A DNA stretch of 64,000 nucleotides. Source: an uncultured Spirochaetaceae bacterium (GTDB lineage Bacteria > Spirochaetota > Spirochaetia > Sphaerochaetales > Sphaerochaetaceae). Position 1 is the first letter of the stretch; each line of letters opens with the position of its first letter. Made by a program: the position numbers and the translations under genes. The notes below the pieces were generated by a model. It searched no databases and was not told where the DNA came from. It saw only the letters and a program-made list of their open reading frames with translations. This document shows, in pieces, positions 20,455-58,530 of this stretch. The DNA lies in assembly GCA_944390015.1 (NCBI GenBank), contig CALXOL010000004.1:1-64000 (forward strand). Reading direction: 5' to 3'.

Positions 20455-21444
20455 ATGTATGAAGCTTTAGATACAAGATATGATTTTATGAAGTACAGAA
20501 GGGTGGGAAACAGCGGACTTGTCCTTTCTGCGTTCACATTGGGACTATGGCATAATTTCGGATCATCTGGGGATTATGCTGAGATGAAGCGGATGGTTTA
20601 TACCGCTTTTGATAACGGTATAATGAGCTTTGATCTTGCAAATAACTATGGCCCTCCTGGAGGGGAGGCTGAGAGGAATTTCGGCTCCATACTTAAAGAC
20701 GGGCTTTCCGCTTACCGTGATGAGATCATAATCAGTACGAAGGCAGGCTATCAGATGTGGCCGGGACCTCTTGGAAGGGGAGGTGGAAAAAAACATCTCC
20801 TCTCATCTCTTGACCAGAGTCTGAAGCGCATGGGACTTGATTATGTGGATATTTTCTACCATCATTGCCCCGATCCTGATACTCCGCTTGAAGAGACTGT
20901 TGAGGCGCTTGTAGAGGCAATCAGGAGTGGTAAAACAAGGTATGTGGCGCTCTCTAAATATAACGCAAAGGATGCTCGGAGAGCATATGAGCTCTTTTCG
21001 ATGTACGGGGTAAGGCCGGTACTCGATCAGGTTAGGTATTCCATCCTGGACAGGGCTTTCGATGATGACAATCTTTTCATGGTTCTTGATTCTATAGGGA
21101 TGGGATCTGCTATATTCTCTCCTCTTGCCCAGGGGCTTTTGACCGATAAATACCTTTCTGGAGACGTTCCGGTTAATTCAAGGGCACATGAGAATAACTA
21201 CCTCAGGGAGAGTGTGATCACCGCGGGCCTCATCGCACGGCTTGAGGAGCTTAAAAAGATAGCATCCATGCGAGGGCAGAGCCTTGCCCAGATGGCTCTT
21301 GCATTTGCCCTTTCCCAGAGGAGTGTCGCTACCGTCCTAGTAGGGGCTAGGAACGCAGAGCAGCTTGTCGAGAATATTAAGACGCTAGAGACCGATTTGA
21401 ACTTCTCAGACGATGAGATAGCTGAAATACTCTCTTACGCTTAA
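20455..21444 (+). CDS. Aldo/keto reductase, YghZ (L-glyceraldehyde-3-phosphate reductase)-like
   Basis: 330 residues, NADPH-dependent AKR barrel. Signature pieces: YRRVGNSGLVLSAFTLGLWH, FDLANNYGPPGGEAERNFG (catalytic Asp and Tyr), IISTKAGYQMWPGPLGRGGG (catalytic Lys), YVDIFYHHCPDPDTPLEET (catalytic His) and the NADP-binding ATVLVGARNAEQL. The GPPGGEAE and HHCPDPDTP strings are typical of the YghZ/AKR14 group, which detoxifies methylglyoxal and reduces L-glyceraldehyde 3-phosphate. The start is set by promoter spacing. Convergent with the xanthine dehydrogenase gene, overlapping by 4 bp. Confidence 0.88.
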   Translation: MYEALDTRYDFMKYRRVGNSGLVLSAFTLGLWHNFGSSGDYAEMKRMVYTAFDNGIMSFDLANNYGPPGGEAERNFGSILKDGLSAYRDEIIISTKAGYQMWPGPLGRGGGKKHLLSSLDQSLKRMGLDYVDIFYHHCPDPDTPLEETVEALVEAIRSGKTRYVALSKYNAKDARRAYELFSMYGVRPVLDQVRYSILDRAFDDDNLFMVLDSIGMGSAIFSPLAQGLLTDKYLSGDVPVNSRAHENNYLRESVITAGLIARLEELKKIASMRGQSLAQMALAFALSQRSVATVLVGARNAEQLVENIKTLETDLNFSDDEIAEILSYA

Positions 21445-53195: not shown

Positions 53196-53269
53196 GGTGT
53201 CGTACCCAAGCGGCCTAAGGGAACGGTCTGCAAAACCGTCTTTCAGCGGTTCGAATCCGCTCGACACCT
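53196..53269 (+). tRNA. tRNA-Cys (anticodon GCA)
   Basis: 74 nt. Acceptor GGTGTCG/CGACACC, anticodon stem ACGGT/ACCGT with loop CTGCAAA giving GCA, T arm AGCGG-TTCGAAT-CCGCT, discriminator T as usual for Cys. CCA is not encoded. The last 42 bp are repeated at 58489-58530, so the tRNA is the attachment site of the island. Confidence 0.95.
53228..53269 (+). repeat. attL core (42 bp, inside tRNA-Cys)
   Basis: Identical over 42 bp to 58489-58530. It covers the anticodon loop to the 3' end of the tRNA; the bases on both sides differ between copies, which defines the repeat exactly. Confidence 0.93.
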
Positions 53270-53342
53270 ATATTGTAAGCCTCTTTCCAGTAACGATTTA
53301 TCTTATTTGGTGGTAGGAAATCTGTTACTAGGAGAAAGGCAC

Positions 53343-53364
53343 TGTGACTAAATCTGTGACTAAA
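53343..53364 (+). repeat. Arm-type repeats TGTGACTAAA, left end
   Basis: TGTGACTAAA at 53343-53352 and 53355-53364, period 12 bp, between attL and the integrase gene. The same pair in the same orientation lies near attR (58348-58369). They are likely arm-binding sites for the tyrosine integrase. Confidence 0.6.
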
Positions 53365-53429
53365 AATGAGGTTGCAAAATCTCGTACGTTAAGCAATTTC
53401 TCCCTTCTTTTGCACTACAGGAGGGAGCG

Positions 53430-54668
53430 ATGAAATCAAGATTTTATGTATTCAAACGCAAGACAGGATTAAAAACCCCTTCTTTCTACGTGAGGTTTAC
53501 CCCGTTATCTCAAAAATACAACTATGTTGTTAAAAGCATAGACAGGCTTAATGAGCAGCTGTCTTTCTCTTATGGGGAAAGGAAGATAACGAAAAGATAT
53601 GAAGCCATAGCAATTGCCGAAGAGGCTTTAAAAAGGGATATGGTCTTTCATAGCAATTCGGATAGAGAGAAAAAGTCATGCTTTAATGACTATGTCTGTC
53701 TCATATGGGATTATGAGAAATCCCCCTATATAAGAAGGAAGCTTAAAGAAAAGCCTGATAGTATCACAAGAAAACACGTTGATGATATCTCTAGGGCTTT
53801 TCAGTTGCACGCAATGCCTTATATCCCCTCTAAGCTGCTGTTGTCTGAATTTACCCCGTCTACAGTAGAAAAGATAAAAGACAGAATGCTTGATGATGGA
53901 CTTTCCAGCTCTACTATCAACAAGGTGGTGCAAGCAATTCGCACTGCTGTAAAAGAGGCTTACAGGGTAGGAGATATAAAGGACAACATTGCAGACAGGA
54001 TCATAAACGTTACAAGCAATCAGGAGAAGGAAAGGGGAATCCCTTCTACAGATGAAGTAAAAAAACTATTGGACTATCTCAATGACTGTTACCCCGTAGG
54101 AGAATATGATAGGGCTTATTATCTCATAACTGCTATTGCTGTTTTCACAGGCATGAGAGAGGCAGAAATAAGAACGCTACACGCAAACGCTATCCATTTG
54201 CACGAGAAGACGGCAATCATAGATGTAGAATACTCATATAACCCGAAAGACAAGCTTAAATGCACGAAAAACAGAAAGAAGCGTAATGTAACAATTCCTT
54301 TAAGTCTTGCTATAGAAATCTTGGATTATTCAGGCTGTAATCCGATAGATGGAGGCTTTATCTTCTGGAGCGTTAAGAATCCAGGTAAGCCGATATCTAC
54401 AAATGCGATATTGAATCACTTCTACTCAGCATTAGAGGCAATCGGGGTAGACTACAAGGAAAGAAACATAGTCTTTCATTCTTTAAGGCATTATTTCACC
54501 TCCACAATTCAGGAAGAATTGACCTCTGATGAAGCCAGACGCTTGCTAGGACACTCTTCTTTAAAGATGACGGATCATTACACTCATGAGACTACAGAAC
54601 ATCTTTTAAAGATGGATGTTGTCAGAGAGAAGGCTATACCTTCTTCAATGCTCAATGGAGGTGTTTGA
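53430..54668 (+). CDS. int: Tyrosine recombinase (site-specific integrase)
   Basis: 412 residues. N-terminal arm-binding region, SAM-like core-binding domain (TPSTVEKIKDRMLDDGLSSS, TINKVVQAIRTAVKEAYRVG), then the catalytic domain. Catalytic Arg is in AVFTGMREAEIRTLHANA, Lys/beta-hairpin in KCTKNRKKRNVTIPL, His-x-x-Arg in VFHSLRHYFTST, second His in RRLLGHSSLKMTDHYTH, where the final Tyr nucleophile also lies. All residues are present, so it should be active. It sits next to attL with arm-type repeats in its leader and directs insertion into tRNA-Cys. Three TTACCCCGT copies are inside the gene. Confidence 0.95.
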   Translation: MKSRFYVFKRKTGLKTPSFYVRFTPLSQKYNYVVKSIDRLNEQLSFSYGERKITKRYEAIAIAEEALKRDMVFHSNSDREKKSCFNDYVCLIWDYEKSPYIRRKLKEKPDSITRKHVDDISRAFQLHAMPYIPSKLLLSEFTPSTVEKIKDRMLDDGLSSSTINKVVQAIRTAVKEAYRVGDIKDNIADRIINVTSNQEKERGIPSTDEVKKLLDYLNDCYPVGEYDRAYYLITAIAVFTGMREAEIRTLHANAIHLHEKTAIIDVEYSYNPKDKLKCTKNRKKRNVTIPLSLAIEILDYSGCNPIDGGFIFWSVKNPGKPISTNAILNHFYSALEAIGVDYKERNIVFHSLRHYFTSTIQEELTSDEARRLLGHSSLKMTDHYTHETTEHLLKMDVVREKAIPSSMLNGGV

Positions 54669-54669
54669 T

Positions 54670-55254
54670 ATGGCCAGAGCAAGGGATAACAACACAATAC
54701 CTTTTGACCGCAACCGAATAATAAACGGGGTAATGTATTCAATTCCTGAAATGAAAGAGAAGGCTTTAAACATAATCGACAATTCAACAAAAACAATGGA
54801 AGAGAGCTATAGCAGAAATAAAGGGAGATGGGAGCTTTATATCTTGGGTGATTATGATTTTGAGATGGATTTAGAAGATATAATCAGTAGAAATCTCCAC
54901 ACGCTGGGAATGAAATTAGATAAGGCAGATAGATTAAGAGGAGATGTTTTAAACGCTGTCTGTGAAGCTGATAAAACGCTTAGAATGCTATGGAAATGTA
55001 CGGGGGAAAAGCAAGATACCCTGAGAAGAGAAGTTACCCCGTTTTTATCCCCTTCTGAAAGTAGATTGTTTGAAAAGCTTTTAGAGAGAAATACAAAGTT
55101 TCTTGAATTTGTGAATAGATCCATGGAGAGGGCTTTAGCAAAGATTTATATCAAGGCTGAAATTTTAACGGAAACATTAGAAATGGAAAGAGAGTTAAGA
55201 AATATAAGAGAAGGGGGCGAGGATGGCGAATGGCTGGAGAAAAGAGAACAATAG
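54670..55254 (+). CDS. Island protein of unknown function (helical)
   Basis: 194 residues from ATG 54670, just after the integrase stop, with GGAGG 8 nt upstream. Mostly charged helical text (EMKEKALNIIDNSTKTMEES, LDKADRLRGDVLNAVCEADK, FEKLLERNTKFLEFVNRSME), coiled-coil-like towards the C-terminus. No membrane segment and no motif I recognise. One inverse TTACCCCGT copy (54725) and one direct copy (55034) lie in it. Overlapping coupling with the next unknown gene suggests the two proteins act together. Confidence 0.55.
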   Translation: MARARDNNTIPFDRNRIINGVMYSIPEMKEKALNIIDNSTKTMEESYSRNKGRWELYILGDYDFEMDLEDIISRNLHTLGMKLDKADRLRGDVLNAVCEADKTLRMLWKCTGEKQDTLRREVTPFLSPSESRLFEKLLERNTKFLEFVNRSMERALAKIYIKAEILTETLEMERELRNIREGGEDGEWLEKREQ

Positions 55255-55931
55255 ATAGAATTGTTAATTTCTTTATTGAAAACTCTTTTTTGAGTTTGTG
55301 TCATGTGCATAGTTGTAGCGAAAATGAAGGGGATACTCTTTGGGGAGGGGTTTATTATGATGAATTTTCTTCTGAAGAAACTTTTGATGTTCCATTAGAA
55401 AAAATGCATATCTTGGAGGACATAGAAGAATTGAATAACCATTTAAATACCCTTATTTGTGGATTCGATTCTTTTTCAAAAAGATTTTGTGATATTTTGG
55501 TGAAAGAAGATTCTTGCTTATCGGATAAAGATAAGAATAACGTAAAGAAATTCTTTAGAGATTATATGCTAAGTGAAGAAGTCAATTCCATTTCCCGTCT
55601 AATTAGAAATATATATCTTGAAGTAAGTAATATGGAAAAACTTGCAAAACTTGCTATTGGTGATAACAAAGAATCAGCTTATGGTTTAGCCGTTAAACAT
55701 GGTCTTTTACAAGAAAAAGATGGTACTTATACGCCTATTTTTGAAGATGGAAAGAAAGGGCTGAAAAATGTGTTAGAAAGATGGTATGTACTCTCTTTAG
55801 ATTATAAAATCCCTATGCCTACTGCTAAAGAGATTGCCCAAAAAATAAGCAATCCAGACGGAAAGAGTTACAAGGAAAGTACAATAGGAAAATACTTGGA
55901 ACATTTTAGAATTTTAAGAAGTTACAATTAG
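55230..55931 (+). CDS. Island protein of unknown function with C-terminal HTH-like segment
   Basis: 233 residues; starts 25 bp inside the preceding gene. A+T-rich. Early Cys/His residues (LSLCHVHSCSEN), a helical middle (NVKKFFRDYMLSEEVNSISR, LIRNIYLEVSNMEKLAKLAI) and an end that reads like a winged-helix unit (TAKEIAQKISNPDGKSYKES, TIGKYLEHFRILRSY). It could bind DNA, for instance the tandem repeats that follow 16 bp after its stop, but this is inference. No family recognised. Confidence 0.55.
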   Translation: MAGEKRTIDRIVNFFIENSFLSLCHVHSCSENEGDTLWGGVYYDEFSSEETFDVPLEKMHILEDIEELNNHLNTLICGFDSFSKRFCDILVKEDSCLSDKDKNNVKKFFRDYMLSEEVNSISRLIRNIYLEVSNMEKLAKLAIGDNKESAYGLAVKHGLLQEKDGTYTPIFEDGKKGLKNVLERWYVLSLDYKIPMPTAKEIAQKISNPDGKSYKESTIGKYLEHFRILRSYN

Positions 55932-55946
55932 AATTACGGGAAAATT

Positions 55947-55980
55947 GGAATAAATTCGGAATAAATTCGGAATAATTTTC
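55947..55980 (+). repeat. Tandem 11-bp iteron-like repeats
   Basis: GGAATAAATTC at 55947-55957 and 55958-55968, then a weaker GGAATAATTTT at 55969-55979. They lie about 100 bp before the Xis-like/RepA-like operon. Tandem repeats in this position are typical of a Rep-binding origin or of an operator for the operon. The remaining bases to 56079 are A+T-rich without another clear feature, apart from AGTAGGAGG before the next ATG. Confidence 0.55.
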
Positions 55981-56079
55981 GAATTACTTTTTCCTTCTAT
56001 TTGTTTATGGTCATAGTTGTCTTACCACCAAATAAGACAAAACGTTACAAAGACCACAAAATAAGTAGGAGGATTTTTT

Positions 56080-56271
56080 ATGGAAAAATTGTTAGGTCTA
56101 AAAGAAGCAGCTGGAATGCTAGGCGTTAAGCAGTCCACCCTCAGGAAATGGGTTTACTTAGGCAATGTGGAATACTGCAAAGTCGGCGGTATGTTGAAAT
56201 TCACGGAAGCACAGATCAAGGCGTGTATCAAAACATATTCTTTCTCAAAGTCGCATAAGAAGGAGGCTTGA
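56080..56271 (+). CDS. Excisionase-like HTH protein (MerR/HTH_17 type)
   Basis: 63 residues. LLGLKEAAGMLGVKQSTLRK, WVYLGNVEYCKVGGMLKF is the HTH_17 'DNA-binding, excisionase family' pattern: helix-turn-helix followed by a short wing (KVGGMLKF). AGTAGGAGG precedes the ATG by 7 nt. It ends 1 bp before the RepA-like gene. As the only small HTH protein of the element it is the likely Xis, or the activator of the replication gene. Confidence 0.8.
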   Translation: MEKLLGLKEAAGMLGVKQSTLRKWVYLGNVEYCKVGGMLKFTEAQIKACIKTYSFSKSHKKEA

Positions 56272-56272
56272 T

Positions 56273-57424
56273 ATGAAGGGGGATGTTGTTAAAAAATCCC
56301 CCTCCAAAGCTGGAGAAGGGGATAAAAATTCTTTGTATAATAATAGCTCTTTTATTTTAAAAGGAGAACATAAAGAACGACTAAAGTTAGCTGATAGGTC
56401 TTGGCGTGAGTCTGAGAGAGTTGTAGACAGATGGCTTATACATGAAATTATCCCCTCTAAAGGCGCAGGGATGTTGCATGGTTTATCTGGTTCTTATAAG
56501 ACATATGTAGCTTTAGACATTGCTTGTCATATCGCTACTGGAACCGCCTACCATGGGTTTAAAACGCAACAAGGGGGAGTTCTCTTTATAGAAGGCGAAG
56601 GCGATGGGCTTGGGATAAAGCAAAGAATCAATGCTTGGCTCGATTTTCACCTAGACGCATCACCTTCTAGTTTGCTGGATAATATAGAATTTTTGAATTT
56701 TGAATTCATAAGCCAATTAAAGTTTAGAAAAAATAACGAAGTATTATGTTGGCTGACAGAAGGCATAAAGGCAGAAGGTTCTAACATAAAATTGATTGTT
56801 GTTGACACTCAATCTGTTTTTAACGTTGGAGATGAAAATAAAGAAGAAACGGCAAAGGATTTTGTTGAGACTTGTAAGTATGTTTCTGTTGAATTGGGCT
56901 GTAATGTATTGTTCATTCATCATGATGGGAAAAATAGCGAGGTGTCATCAGGGCAGACCTATAGAGGCTCTTCTGCATTCTATGCAAATAGTGACTATTC
57001 GTTAAAATTGAAAGTAAAGCCAGGGATGATTAATCATGCCTATCTGGAAATTGAAAAAATGAGACAGTCCAAAAGTAATTATTCTTTTGAAGTAGGGTTG
57101 AGCGAAATCACTTTTGAAGAAGGATATGGATCTAGTCTTGCCGTAACATCTTTGACATGCTGCGAGAATGTTGACCTCTCACGAAACAATGACAAGAGAA
57201 TTGTTTTTGAAGATTTCCTTAAGTATTGTTCTTTGAATAAAGGTGATACATTCGGATATGAAGACTTTAAATCATGGAGAGAATCAAAAGGGGATGATGA
57301 TGAATCTATACGAAGAGCCTTCAATGATAAGAATAGATTCATAGACAGATGGTTAGAGCAATCTTATATCGCTCGAGTTGATAGTGGTTTTCAGGGGACA
57401 AAACGCAAATTCAACGTAGTTTGA
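56273..57424 (+). CDS. RepA-like AAA ATPase (AAA_25, replicative-helicase type)
   Basis: 383 residues. Walker A variant MLHGLSGSYKTYVALDIACH (GSYKT instead of GSGKT; the Lys and Thr are kept and this variant is seen in related phage proteins). Then GGVLFIEGEGDGLGIKQRIN, Walker B LIVVDTQSVFNVGDENKEE, LFIHHDGKN and GQTYRGSSAFYANSDYSLKL. This is the hexameric RecA-fold seen in RSF1010 RepA and phage/satellite primase-helicases. The C-terminal 90 residues look like a helical, winged-helix domain. It probably unwinds the excised element for replication. Confidence 0.85.
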   Translation: MKGDVVKKSPSKAGEGDKNSLYNNSSFILKGEHKERLKLADRSWRESERVVDRWLIHEIIPSKGAGMLHGLSGSYKTYVALDIACHIATGTAYHGFKTQQGGVLFIEGEGDGLGIKQRINAWLDFHLDASPSSLLDNIEFLNFEFISQLKFRKNNEVLCWLTEGIKAEGSNIKLIVVDTQSVFNVGDENKEETAKDFVETCKYVSVELGCNVLFIHHDGKNSEVSSGQTYRGSSAFYANSDYSLKLKVKPGMINHAYLEIEKMRQSKSNYSFEVGLSEITFEEGYGSSLAVTSLTCCENVDLSRNNDKRIVFEDFLKYCSLNKGDTFGYEDFKSWRESKGDDDESIRRAFNDKNRFIDRWLEQSYIARVDSGFQGTKRKFNVV

Positions 57425-57433
57425 AGGCAACTA

Positions 57434-57468
57434 ACTAACTATTCCTATATATTGTTTAGATAGTTAGT
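57434..57468 (+). terminator. Inverted repeat, probable terminator of the RepA-like gene
   Basis: ACTAACTAT (57434-57442) and ATAGTTAGT (57460-57468) pair perfectly, with partial extension outward. A T-rich stretch (GTTGTTTT) follows. It begins 10 bp after the stop. Confidence 0.5.
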
Positions 57469-57503
57469 CGGTTAGGTTGTTTTACTCTAATACGCAACAC
57501 AAA

Positions 57504-57581
57504 ACGGGGTAAGAGAGGAGTTGACGGCGTGGCGCACTTGATTAACAGTGTATTACGCTGGAAGTACCTACCTTACCCCGT
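57504..57581. other. Structured non-coding segment bounded by inverted TTACCCCGT motifs
   Basis: ACGGGGTAAG (57504-57513) and CTTACCCCGT (57572-57581) form a 10-bp inverted repeat. Inside are GCGT/ACGC and CACT/AGTG pairs around GATTAAC. There is no reading frame. The whole could fold as one branched stem, fitting a single-strand origin, a protein-bound cruciform or a small RNA. The outer arms are two of the element's eight TTACCCCGT words. Confidence 0.45.
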
Positions 57582-57629
57582 GTATCATTAGGGTACACCC
57601 TTATGAGATATTTGATTTAGTCTGTTTTG

Positions 57630-57715
57630 TGTATCAATAAAGTTACTTTTATGATACATAAATATATCAAAATTCATTTAAGCTCTATTGAGATATATTG
57701 AGATATATATTACTC
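57630..57715. promoter_or_regulatory. Candidate resolution (res) site upstream of the serine recombinase
   Basis: Dyads TGTATCA/TGATACA (57630-57636 with 57652-57658) and TGATA/TATCA (57652-57669) are followed by direct TTGAGATATA repeats (about 57689-57710). Serine resolvases usually bind several imperfect dyads directly upstream of their gene, and autoregulate there. The boundaries are approximate. Confidence 0.4.
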
Positions 57716-57734
57716 TATTATTAAGGGGTCTTAG

Positions 57735-58289
57735 ATGAAAGTAGCTTATATTAGAGTATCGACAGAAGAACAAAATACAGCAAGACAGGAAGAGGCTGTG
57801 CAAAAGCAAGGGGCTGAAAAACTTTTTATAGAAAAGATATCTGGAAAGAATGCCAACAGACCTCAATTAAAAGCAATGCTTGATTTTGTGAGAGAGGGAG
57901 ATTGTTTAATTGTAGAGAGCTATTCAAGGCTTGCAAGAAACACTGTAGATCTTCTTAACATCGTAGGAGAGTTAAACAAGAAAGGTGTTTCCTTTATTTC
58001 CCTTAAAGAGAATATTGATACTTCTACACCACAAGGAAGATTAATGCTTACTATATTTGCTGGACTTGCACAATTTGAAAGGGAGTGTACCTTACAGAGG
58101 CAAGCAGAGGGAATAGCTATTGCAAAGGCGGATGGCAAATATAAAGGTAGGAAGCCTATTTCTCTCCCTTCCAATTGGGACGAGGTAATAAAGCTTTGGA
58201 AAGATGGAGAAATCACTGCTAGAGTTGCACAAAGGAAATTAAATATGACACCAGCAACATTTTATAGGAAAGTTGCAAATATAGAGTAG
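57735..58289 (+). CDS. Serine recombinase (resolvase/invertase family)
   Basis: 184 residues. N-terminal catalytic domain: VAYIRVSTEEQNTARQEEAV with the nucleophile Ser of YxRVST, IVESYSRLARNTVDLL (conserved Arg pair region) and FAGLAQFERECTLQRQAEGI (E-R helix). A C-terminal Hin-like HTH follows: GRKPISLP, then TARVAQRKLNMTPATFYRKV. AAGGGG precedes the ATG. In a small replicating element it would resolve dimers; it may also help excision. A tyrosine integrase is also present, so the roles are probably divided. Confidence 0.92.
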   Translation: MKVAYIRVSTEEQNTARQEEAVQKQGAEKLFIEKISGKNANRPQLKAMLDFVREGDCLIVESYSRLARNTVDLLNIVGELNKKGVSFISLKENIDTSTPQGRLMLTIFAGLAQFERECTLQRQAEGIAIAKADGKYKGRKPISLPSNWDEVIKLWKDGEITARVAQRKLNMTPATFYRKVANIE

Positions 58290-58347
58290 GATATTGCGTG
58301 GTAACTTACCCCGTTTTCTAATTGTGCAATTTAGCTTTACTACCATC

Positions 58348-58488: not shown

Positions 58489-58530
58489 CTGCAAAACCGT
58501 CTTTCAGCGGTTCGAATCCGCTCGACACCT
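58489..58530 (+). repeat. attR core (42 bp)
   Basis: Exact copy of 53228-53269, the 3' part of tRNA-Cys without the 5' half. It is followed after 10 bp by a terminator hairpin that must originally have ended the tRNA-Cys transcript. Confidence 0.93.

Follow-up and report, generated by a model that had tools for sequence, protein, structure and literature searches.

Several described systems repeat a short word within a genome or a mobile element. In the satellite P4, the alpha-protein repeats lie in ori and crr and are clustered in non-coding DNA. TraB recognition sequences, KOPS and DNA uptake sequences (DUS) are strict words of 8-10 bp, which occur on both strands and also in genes. Iteron-controlled replicons carry clustered direct repeats that are bound by Rep. 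The stoperators of L5-type mycobacteriophages are asymmetric, and 18-30 repressor sites are spread over such a genome (PMC4557955).

Here we analyse an integrative element of 5.26 kb (hereafter the island) located at a tRNA-Cys gene in the genome of an uncultured Spirochaetaceae bacterium (G000, a draft of 34 contigs that is about 95% complete). The island carries eight exact copies of the nine-base word TTACCCCGT, which is probably a dedicated recognition site for copying or maintaining the element. All results on this word are based on the single known island that has it. The window designates the whole stretch of 64,000 nucleotides that was analysed.

Organization of the island and its relatives

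The 42-bp att repeat in tRNA-Cys, the Phage_integrase domain and the excisionase-like HTH_17 domain are features of a tRNA-integrated integrative element (Table 1), and all six genes lie on the plus strand. The CTGTGACTAAA repeats are probable arm-type sites of the integrase, and the AT-rich stretch likely holds the res site of the serine resolvase.

Table 1. Features of the island, with positions in the window.
Feature	Position	Strand	Remarks
tRNA-Cys	53196-53269		
attL, 3' part of tRNA-Cys (gca)	53228-53269	+	exact 42-bp direct repeat with 58489-58530
CTGTGACTAAA direct repeats	53342-53377	+	family D1, near both element ends
Tyrosine integrase gene	53430-54668	+	Pfam Phage_integrase, E 2e-22; three word copies
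Word copy 1	53497-53505	+	integrase site 1, FTPL
Word copy 2	53851-53859	+	integrase, FTPS
Word copy 3	54089-54097	+	integrase, CYPV
Orphan ORF2 (194 aa)	54670-55254	+	two word copies
Word copy 4	54725-54733	-	in ORF2
Word copy 5	55034-55042	+	in ORF2
ORF3 (233 aa)	55230-55931	+	kept in sister islands between int and xis (alignment)
Excisionase-like gene	56080-56271	+	Pfam HTH_17, E 2e-7
RepA-like hexameric helicase gene	56273-57424	+	AAA_25, E 2e-28; matches RepA 1g8y, E 7.5e-8
Prophage-shared block, ~93 bp	57479-57571	+	directly 3' of RepA gene; 76% and 74% identity, E 2.8e-8 and 9e-10
Imperfect 78-nt hairpin	57504-57581	+	outer arms are word copies 6 and 7
Word copy 6	57504-57512	-	hairpin left arm; prophage blocks read ATGGGGCAA
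Word copy 7	57573-57581	+	hairpin right arm; absent from prophage blocks
AT-rich stretch	57581-57734	+	17-25% G+C for much of its length; aligns with sister islands
Serine resolvase/invertase gene	57735-58289	+	Pfam Resolvase, E 4e-45
Word copy 8	58306-58314	+	3' of resolvase gene
attR	58489-58530	+	42-bp repeat

The homologues of the integrase are 30-45% identical to it. No primase domain was found in the six island proteins (the PHROG hits of RepA to primase-helicases span its AAA part only), and no dedicated initiator was identified in the island. ORF2 has no relatives in Pfam, PHROGs, NCBIfam, 296 phylum genomes, viral contigs or phage records, and its structure model is helical and of low confidence. 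The predicted structure of ORF3, of low confidence overall, has a winged-helix-like C-terminal part (pLDDT about 85 over residues 150-230); its best fold match among the families in the comparison list is a weak one, to the DNA-binding domain of AraR (Z 4.6).

Sister islands in the genus carry int, an ORF3-like gene, xis and sometimes a resolvase gene, together with a different replication gene; the resolvase of the island is ~80% identical to that of sister islands L062 and L064. Putative Rep_trans proteins, scoring under the Pfam cut-off, occur in sister islands and not in the word-bearing one. Sisters that bear RepA also carry a Toprim primase-like gene, which the island lacks. TTACCCCGT is missing from the sister islands with related int, xis and res, and the RepA-bearing relatives have no comparable private word. 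Searches of viral contigs, phages and plasmids with P0002, P0003 or P0005 returned no close relatives of the island, only resolvase/RepA matches, and no other element searched has a dispersed TTACCCCGT array like that of the island. An inverted pair of the word in viral contig L120 was dismissed as coincidence (the contig is a T7-like phage and the word lies inside promoter-like repeats), and L121, L122, L151 and L152 were attributed to chance. Among the papers listed in a literature search for TTACCCCGT, none was relevant as judged by title.

There are also other repeat families. An iteron-like cluster of TTGGCACCA repeats lies beside another RepA-helicase gene of the same genome (L017, 8945-9113, G000:C12), and dense short repeats occur in other genomes of the genus, in L085 (12014-13597) and L018 (1744-3675) (ACTGTGTTAG, 25 copies; AGTGAATCA, 16 copies).

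A strict word concentrated in the island

The positions and strands of the eight copies given in the earlier note are all exact. That note had seen no exact copy in the flanking DNA, but the window holds a ninth one outside the island, at position 21005 (minus strand). It had also named equal frequency across the chromosome as the observation that would count against a special role of the word. The whole-genome count gives the opposite picture, with 21 copies in the other 2.19 Mb and a 158-fold higher density in the island. At the rest-of-genome rate, 0.05 copies would be expected in the island (P(>=8) = 1e-15), and the count corresponds to E ~2e-15 against a Markov-2 background with correction for all words. 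Only TTACCCCGT and its overlapping shifts reach at least four copies in the island, while the commonest 9-mer in any of ten 5.2-kb tiles of flanking chromosome is an A/T-rich word present five times. The word is also strict: the island has eight exact and two one-mismatch copies, compared to one exact and 15 one-mismatch copies in a chromosome sample.

All 21 copies outside the island are located in open reading frames. On the coding strand, the context is xAC GGG GTA A (Asn/Asp/Tyr/His-Gly-Val) for 18 of these, as opposed to one of the eight island copies (Fisher P = 5e-4). The chromosomal copies are a codon-context background. Across the genus, the count is 0-4 in most of 48 genomes and 11-29 in a few. 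We considered restriction-driven avoidance of the word in the genus and rejected it: the low counts match the Markov expectation and the high counts track the codon context GGG GTA, so that they reflect this context rather than avoidance. The codon pair GGG GTA after xAC shows a genome-specific excess in some species of the genus (as seen in the G000 chromosome) and not in others.

This excess of the same word in the chromosome (18/21 in the xGV frame), along with a prophage region of G063, another species of the genus, with four copies in 5.6 kb, could be taken to mean that the word has no function and results from chance, codon context or some mutational oddity. We consider this very unlikely, because the island copies occupy other frames and non-coding DNA, their number is improbable (P 1e-15) and their one-base neighbours are almost absent. 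The same genomes bear on a role as a protection or methylation site against a nuclease, which the earlier note had envisaged. A strict asymmetric word would suit such a role, for which no positive evidence was found. As domain and family searches revealed no methylase or nuclease among the six island genes, and as related genomes are at Markov background for the word with no sign of avoidance, a protection site is without support and we regard it as extremely improbable.

The word is imposed on coding sequence

In 20,000 trials of synonymous shuffling of the island genes, at most three coding copies were obtained (three only once), compared to the five observed. At integrase site 1, the island reads FTPL, whereas the third residue is D or N in 20 of 20 homologues compared; sites 2 and 3 tell us less, because FTP or YPV also occurs there in some homologues. 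Since shuffling never gave five coding copies and site 1 replaces a conserved D/N, the island word is imposed at the DNA level. The earlier statement that a protein motif cannot explain the copies, which occupy three reading frames as well as non-coding DNA, holds. Even if the word were no recognition box, this 5-kb element would remain an unusually clear example of selection on DNA prevailing over protein sequence.

A non-coding block shared with prophages

The hairpin framed by copies 6 and 7 starts 80 bp past the end of the RepA-like gene. Its z is -6.2 as plus-strand RNA (with G-U pairs), -4.4 as DNA and -4.1 as minus-strand RNA. The 13-mer around copy 8 is the reverse complement of the 13-mer around copy 6. 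The better folding as plus-strand RNA and the location of all six genes on that strand would suit an RNA signal, in which a small RNA or an RNA-binding protein of the element would read UUACCCCGU / ACGGGGUAA in a one-direction transcript and the hairpin would be a source or a sink. However, local RNA structure is confined to the pair 57504/57573 and is lacking at the remaining copies, two of the eight copies have the opposite sense, and tRNA is the only Rfam match, which makes an RNA signal improbable.

The block that overlaps this hairpin has homologues in two related prophages of G063, the first found in a genus-wide search with the island non-coding stretch and the second by inspection. In both prophages it occupies the same position, between convergent genes and 24-26 kb past the major capsid gene. 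It is the sole non-coding DNA found to be common to the island and the prophages. A degenerate pattern for its left part (up to three mismatches) matched the island and these two prophages and nothing else in the genus. The left arm reads ACGGGGTAA in the island and ATGGGGCAA in both prophages, and the two differences are exactly those which make the word; the right arm is missing from both prophage blocks. The inner stem (loop TTGATTA) forms in the island and in one of the two prophages, whereas the other prophage block does not fold in this way. A search with the major capsid protein found no related prophage in the host genome (~95% complete). Judging from sequence, a cis block common to island and prophages suggests a phage-satellite relation.

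Two other interpretations of the block were set aside. The plus strand of the prophage block has no third-position excess of changes expected of coding DNA (hand count), and a minus-strand reading is possible, although short. The pT181-/pC194-like nick sites in the block (TACTCTAATA, CTTGATTA) are suggestive only.

A small int-xis-rep island that lacks terS and capsid genes and has a 93-bp block in common with prophages looks like a phage satellite, which raises the question of a transfer tag. Such a tag could direct packaging by a helper phage, TraB/KOPS-like conjugative translocation or DNA uptake, and the words known from DUS and TraB are likewise short and strict. But the shared block is situated about 29 kb from the prophage terS/terL, whereas a phage cos or pac site lies beside the gene of the terminase small subunit. 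As no other non-coding DNA was found in common, the packaging tag proposed in the earlier note is disfavoured. Moreover, the island has no translocase gene, the prophages have no dispersed word array like that of the island, and among 393 genomes of the phylum none shows an uptake-signal-like density of TTACCCCGT (maximum 60 copies per genome) or qualifies as a donor with a dense word array. The packaging, restriction-protection and uptake-signal readings are all poorly supported, and we think a transfer tag of any kind improbable.

Position and orientation also bear on a resemblance to stoperators, whereby a repressor of the element would bind the asymmetric word in and between genes, block elongation and silence the integrated element. 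The word is short, asymmetric and scattered, three copies are in int, and six of the eight copies have the same sense relative to the all-plus genes. This orientation bias is not significant, though (P = 0.29), and the island has no recognised repressor gene. In addition, the block of the anchor copies sits between convergent genes in the prophages, so that promoters are unlikely there. Silencing of this kind is unlikely, in our view, but deserves some weight.

The G063 prophages have features of their own. Both contain a dispersed AAATACATTT word (L103, 6025-10641, G063:C4, and L143, 6576-9255, G063:C5), which is probably a phage promoter or operator; seven of the eight copies in L103 are intergenic, all are on one strand, and CCATTTA follows most of them after about 10 bp. 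In L082 (7701-13321, G063:C4), four TTACCCCGT copies lie in prophage structural genes, in four contexts and without the strictness seen in the island. Both prophages also encode a reverse transcriptase with an upstream putative variable target protein, in a diversity-generating-retroelement-like arrangement (L143, 1153-4531; L103, 740-4060), and the early region of one of them carries an ArdA antirestriction gene (L143, 9266-9799).

A candidate origin box

Our preferred reading, which is tentative (probability of about 0.4), takes TTACCCCGT for a strict box that is specific to the element and recognised by one of its proteins, with an origin-like anchor and with distal copies for titration/handcuffing or maintenance. 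Among the roles suggested in the earlier note, those of a binding site or a tag for replication agree best with the data, given that the origin-like block 3' of RepA, which is common to two prophages, contains two copies. The anchor would be a cis site that resembles an origin and lies immediately 3' of the gene for the RepA-like helicase. Its left-arm block may have been inherited from, or shared with, a temperate phage lineage, and the island would have acquired another copy in inverted orientation, the two together framing a hairpin next to the AT-rich stretch. The six remaining copies, which are spread over both strands and lie for the most part in int and ORF2, could be extra binding sites, either for the titration/handcuffing of an initiator or for maintaining the excised circle in the manner of a plasmid. 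We infer the function of the block as a replication origin, the binding of the word by a protein and the role of the distal copies. The protein that reads the word might be ORF2, ORF3 or RepA; ORF2 suggests itself solely by being the one gene that has no relatives elsewhere. Against a box at an origin, the copies are scattered, in both orientations and mostly in coding DNA, whereas classical iterons are clustered direct repeats. The absence of the word from the sister islands and of a comparable word from RepA-bearing relatives, the inner stem-loop that only one prophage block keeps and the failure to identify a dedicated initiator also speak against it.

A bolder version, which seems to us rather unlikely, is that this satellite-like element has overwritten parts of its genes with a strict nine-base identity word, at the expense of conserved residues. 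The dispersed copies would then be a code for self-recognition, and a phage-captured anchor would have been re-specified (from ATGGGGCAA to ACGGGGTAA), with the result that one kind of box distinguishes element and phage. Should the word be a box for an initiator or for self-recognition, this would be a mobile element that imposes a DNA code on its own genes and re-specifies a phage-derived cis site. It would provide a short, testable handle on how small satellites separate their own replication or silencing from that of the phage.

Comparison with described systems

Like TraB sites, KOPS and DNA uptake sequences, the island has a strict word scattered on both strands, including in genes, but it has no translocase, and the genome-wide density that marks uptake sequences in a donor lineage was seen in none of the 393 phylum genomes. 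Like the stoperators of L5-like mycobacteriophages, its sites are short, asymmetric and dispersed over a mobile element; however, they number only eight, lie mostly in coding sequence and in both orientations, and have no known repressor. As in P4, short boxes recur at two or more places of a small integrative element, although the island has no alpha-type primase-helicase.

PICI/SaPI satellites and small plasmids carry int, xis and rep genes, as the island does, and their iteron origins similarly place a repeated word 3' of rep beside an AT-rich stretch. The island differs from them in having no primase (PICIs have a primase homologue), recognised initiator, packaging or interference gene, and its copies are mostly scattered through int and ORF2 on both strands, instead of forming the clustered direct repeats of an iteron-controlled replicon. 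In PICIs, the replication origin lies immediately 3' of rep; in the island, this place is taken by the structured, AT-rich and prophage-shared block.
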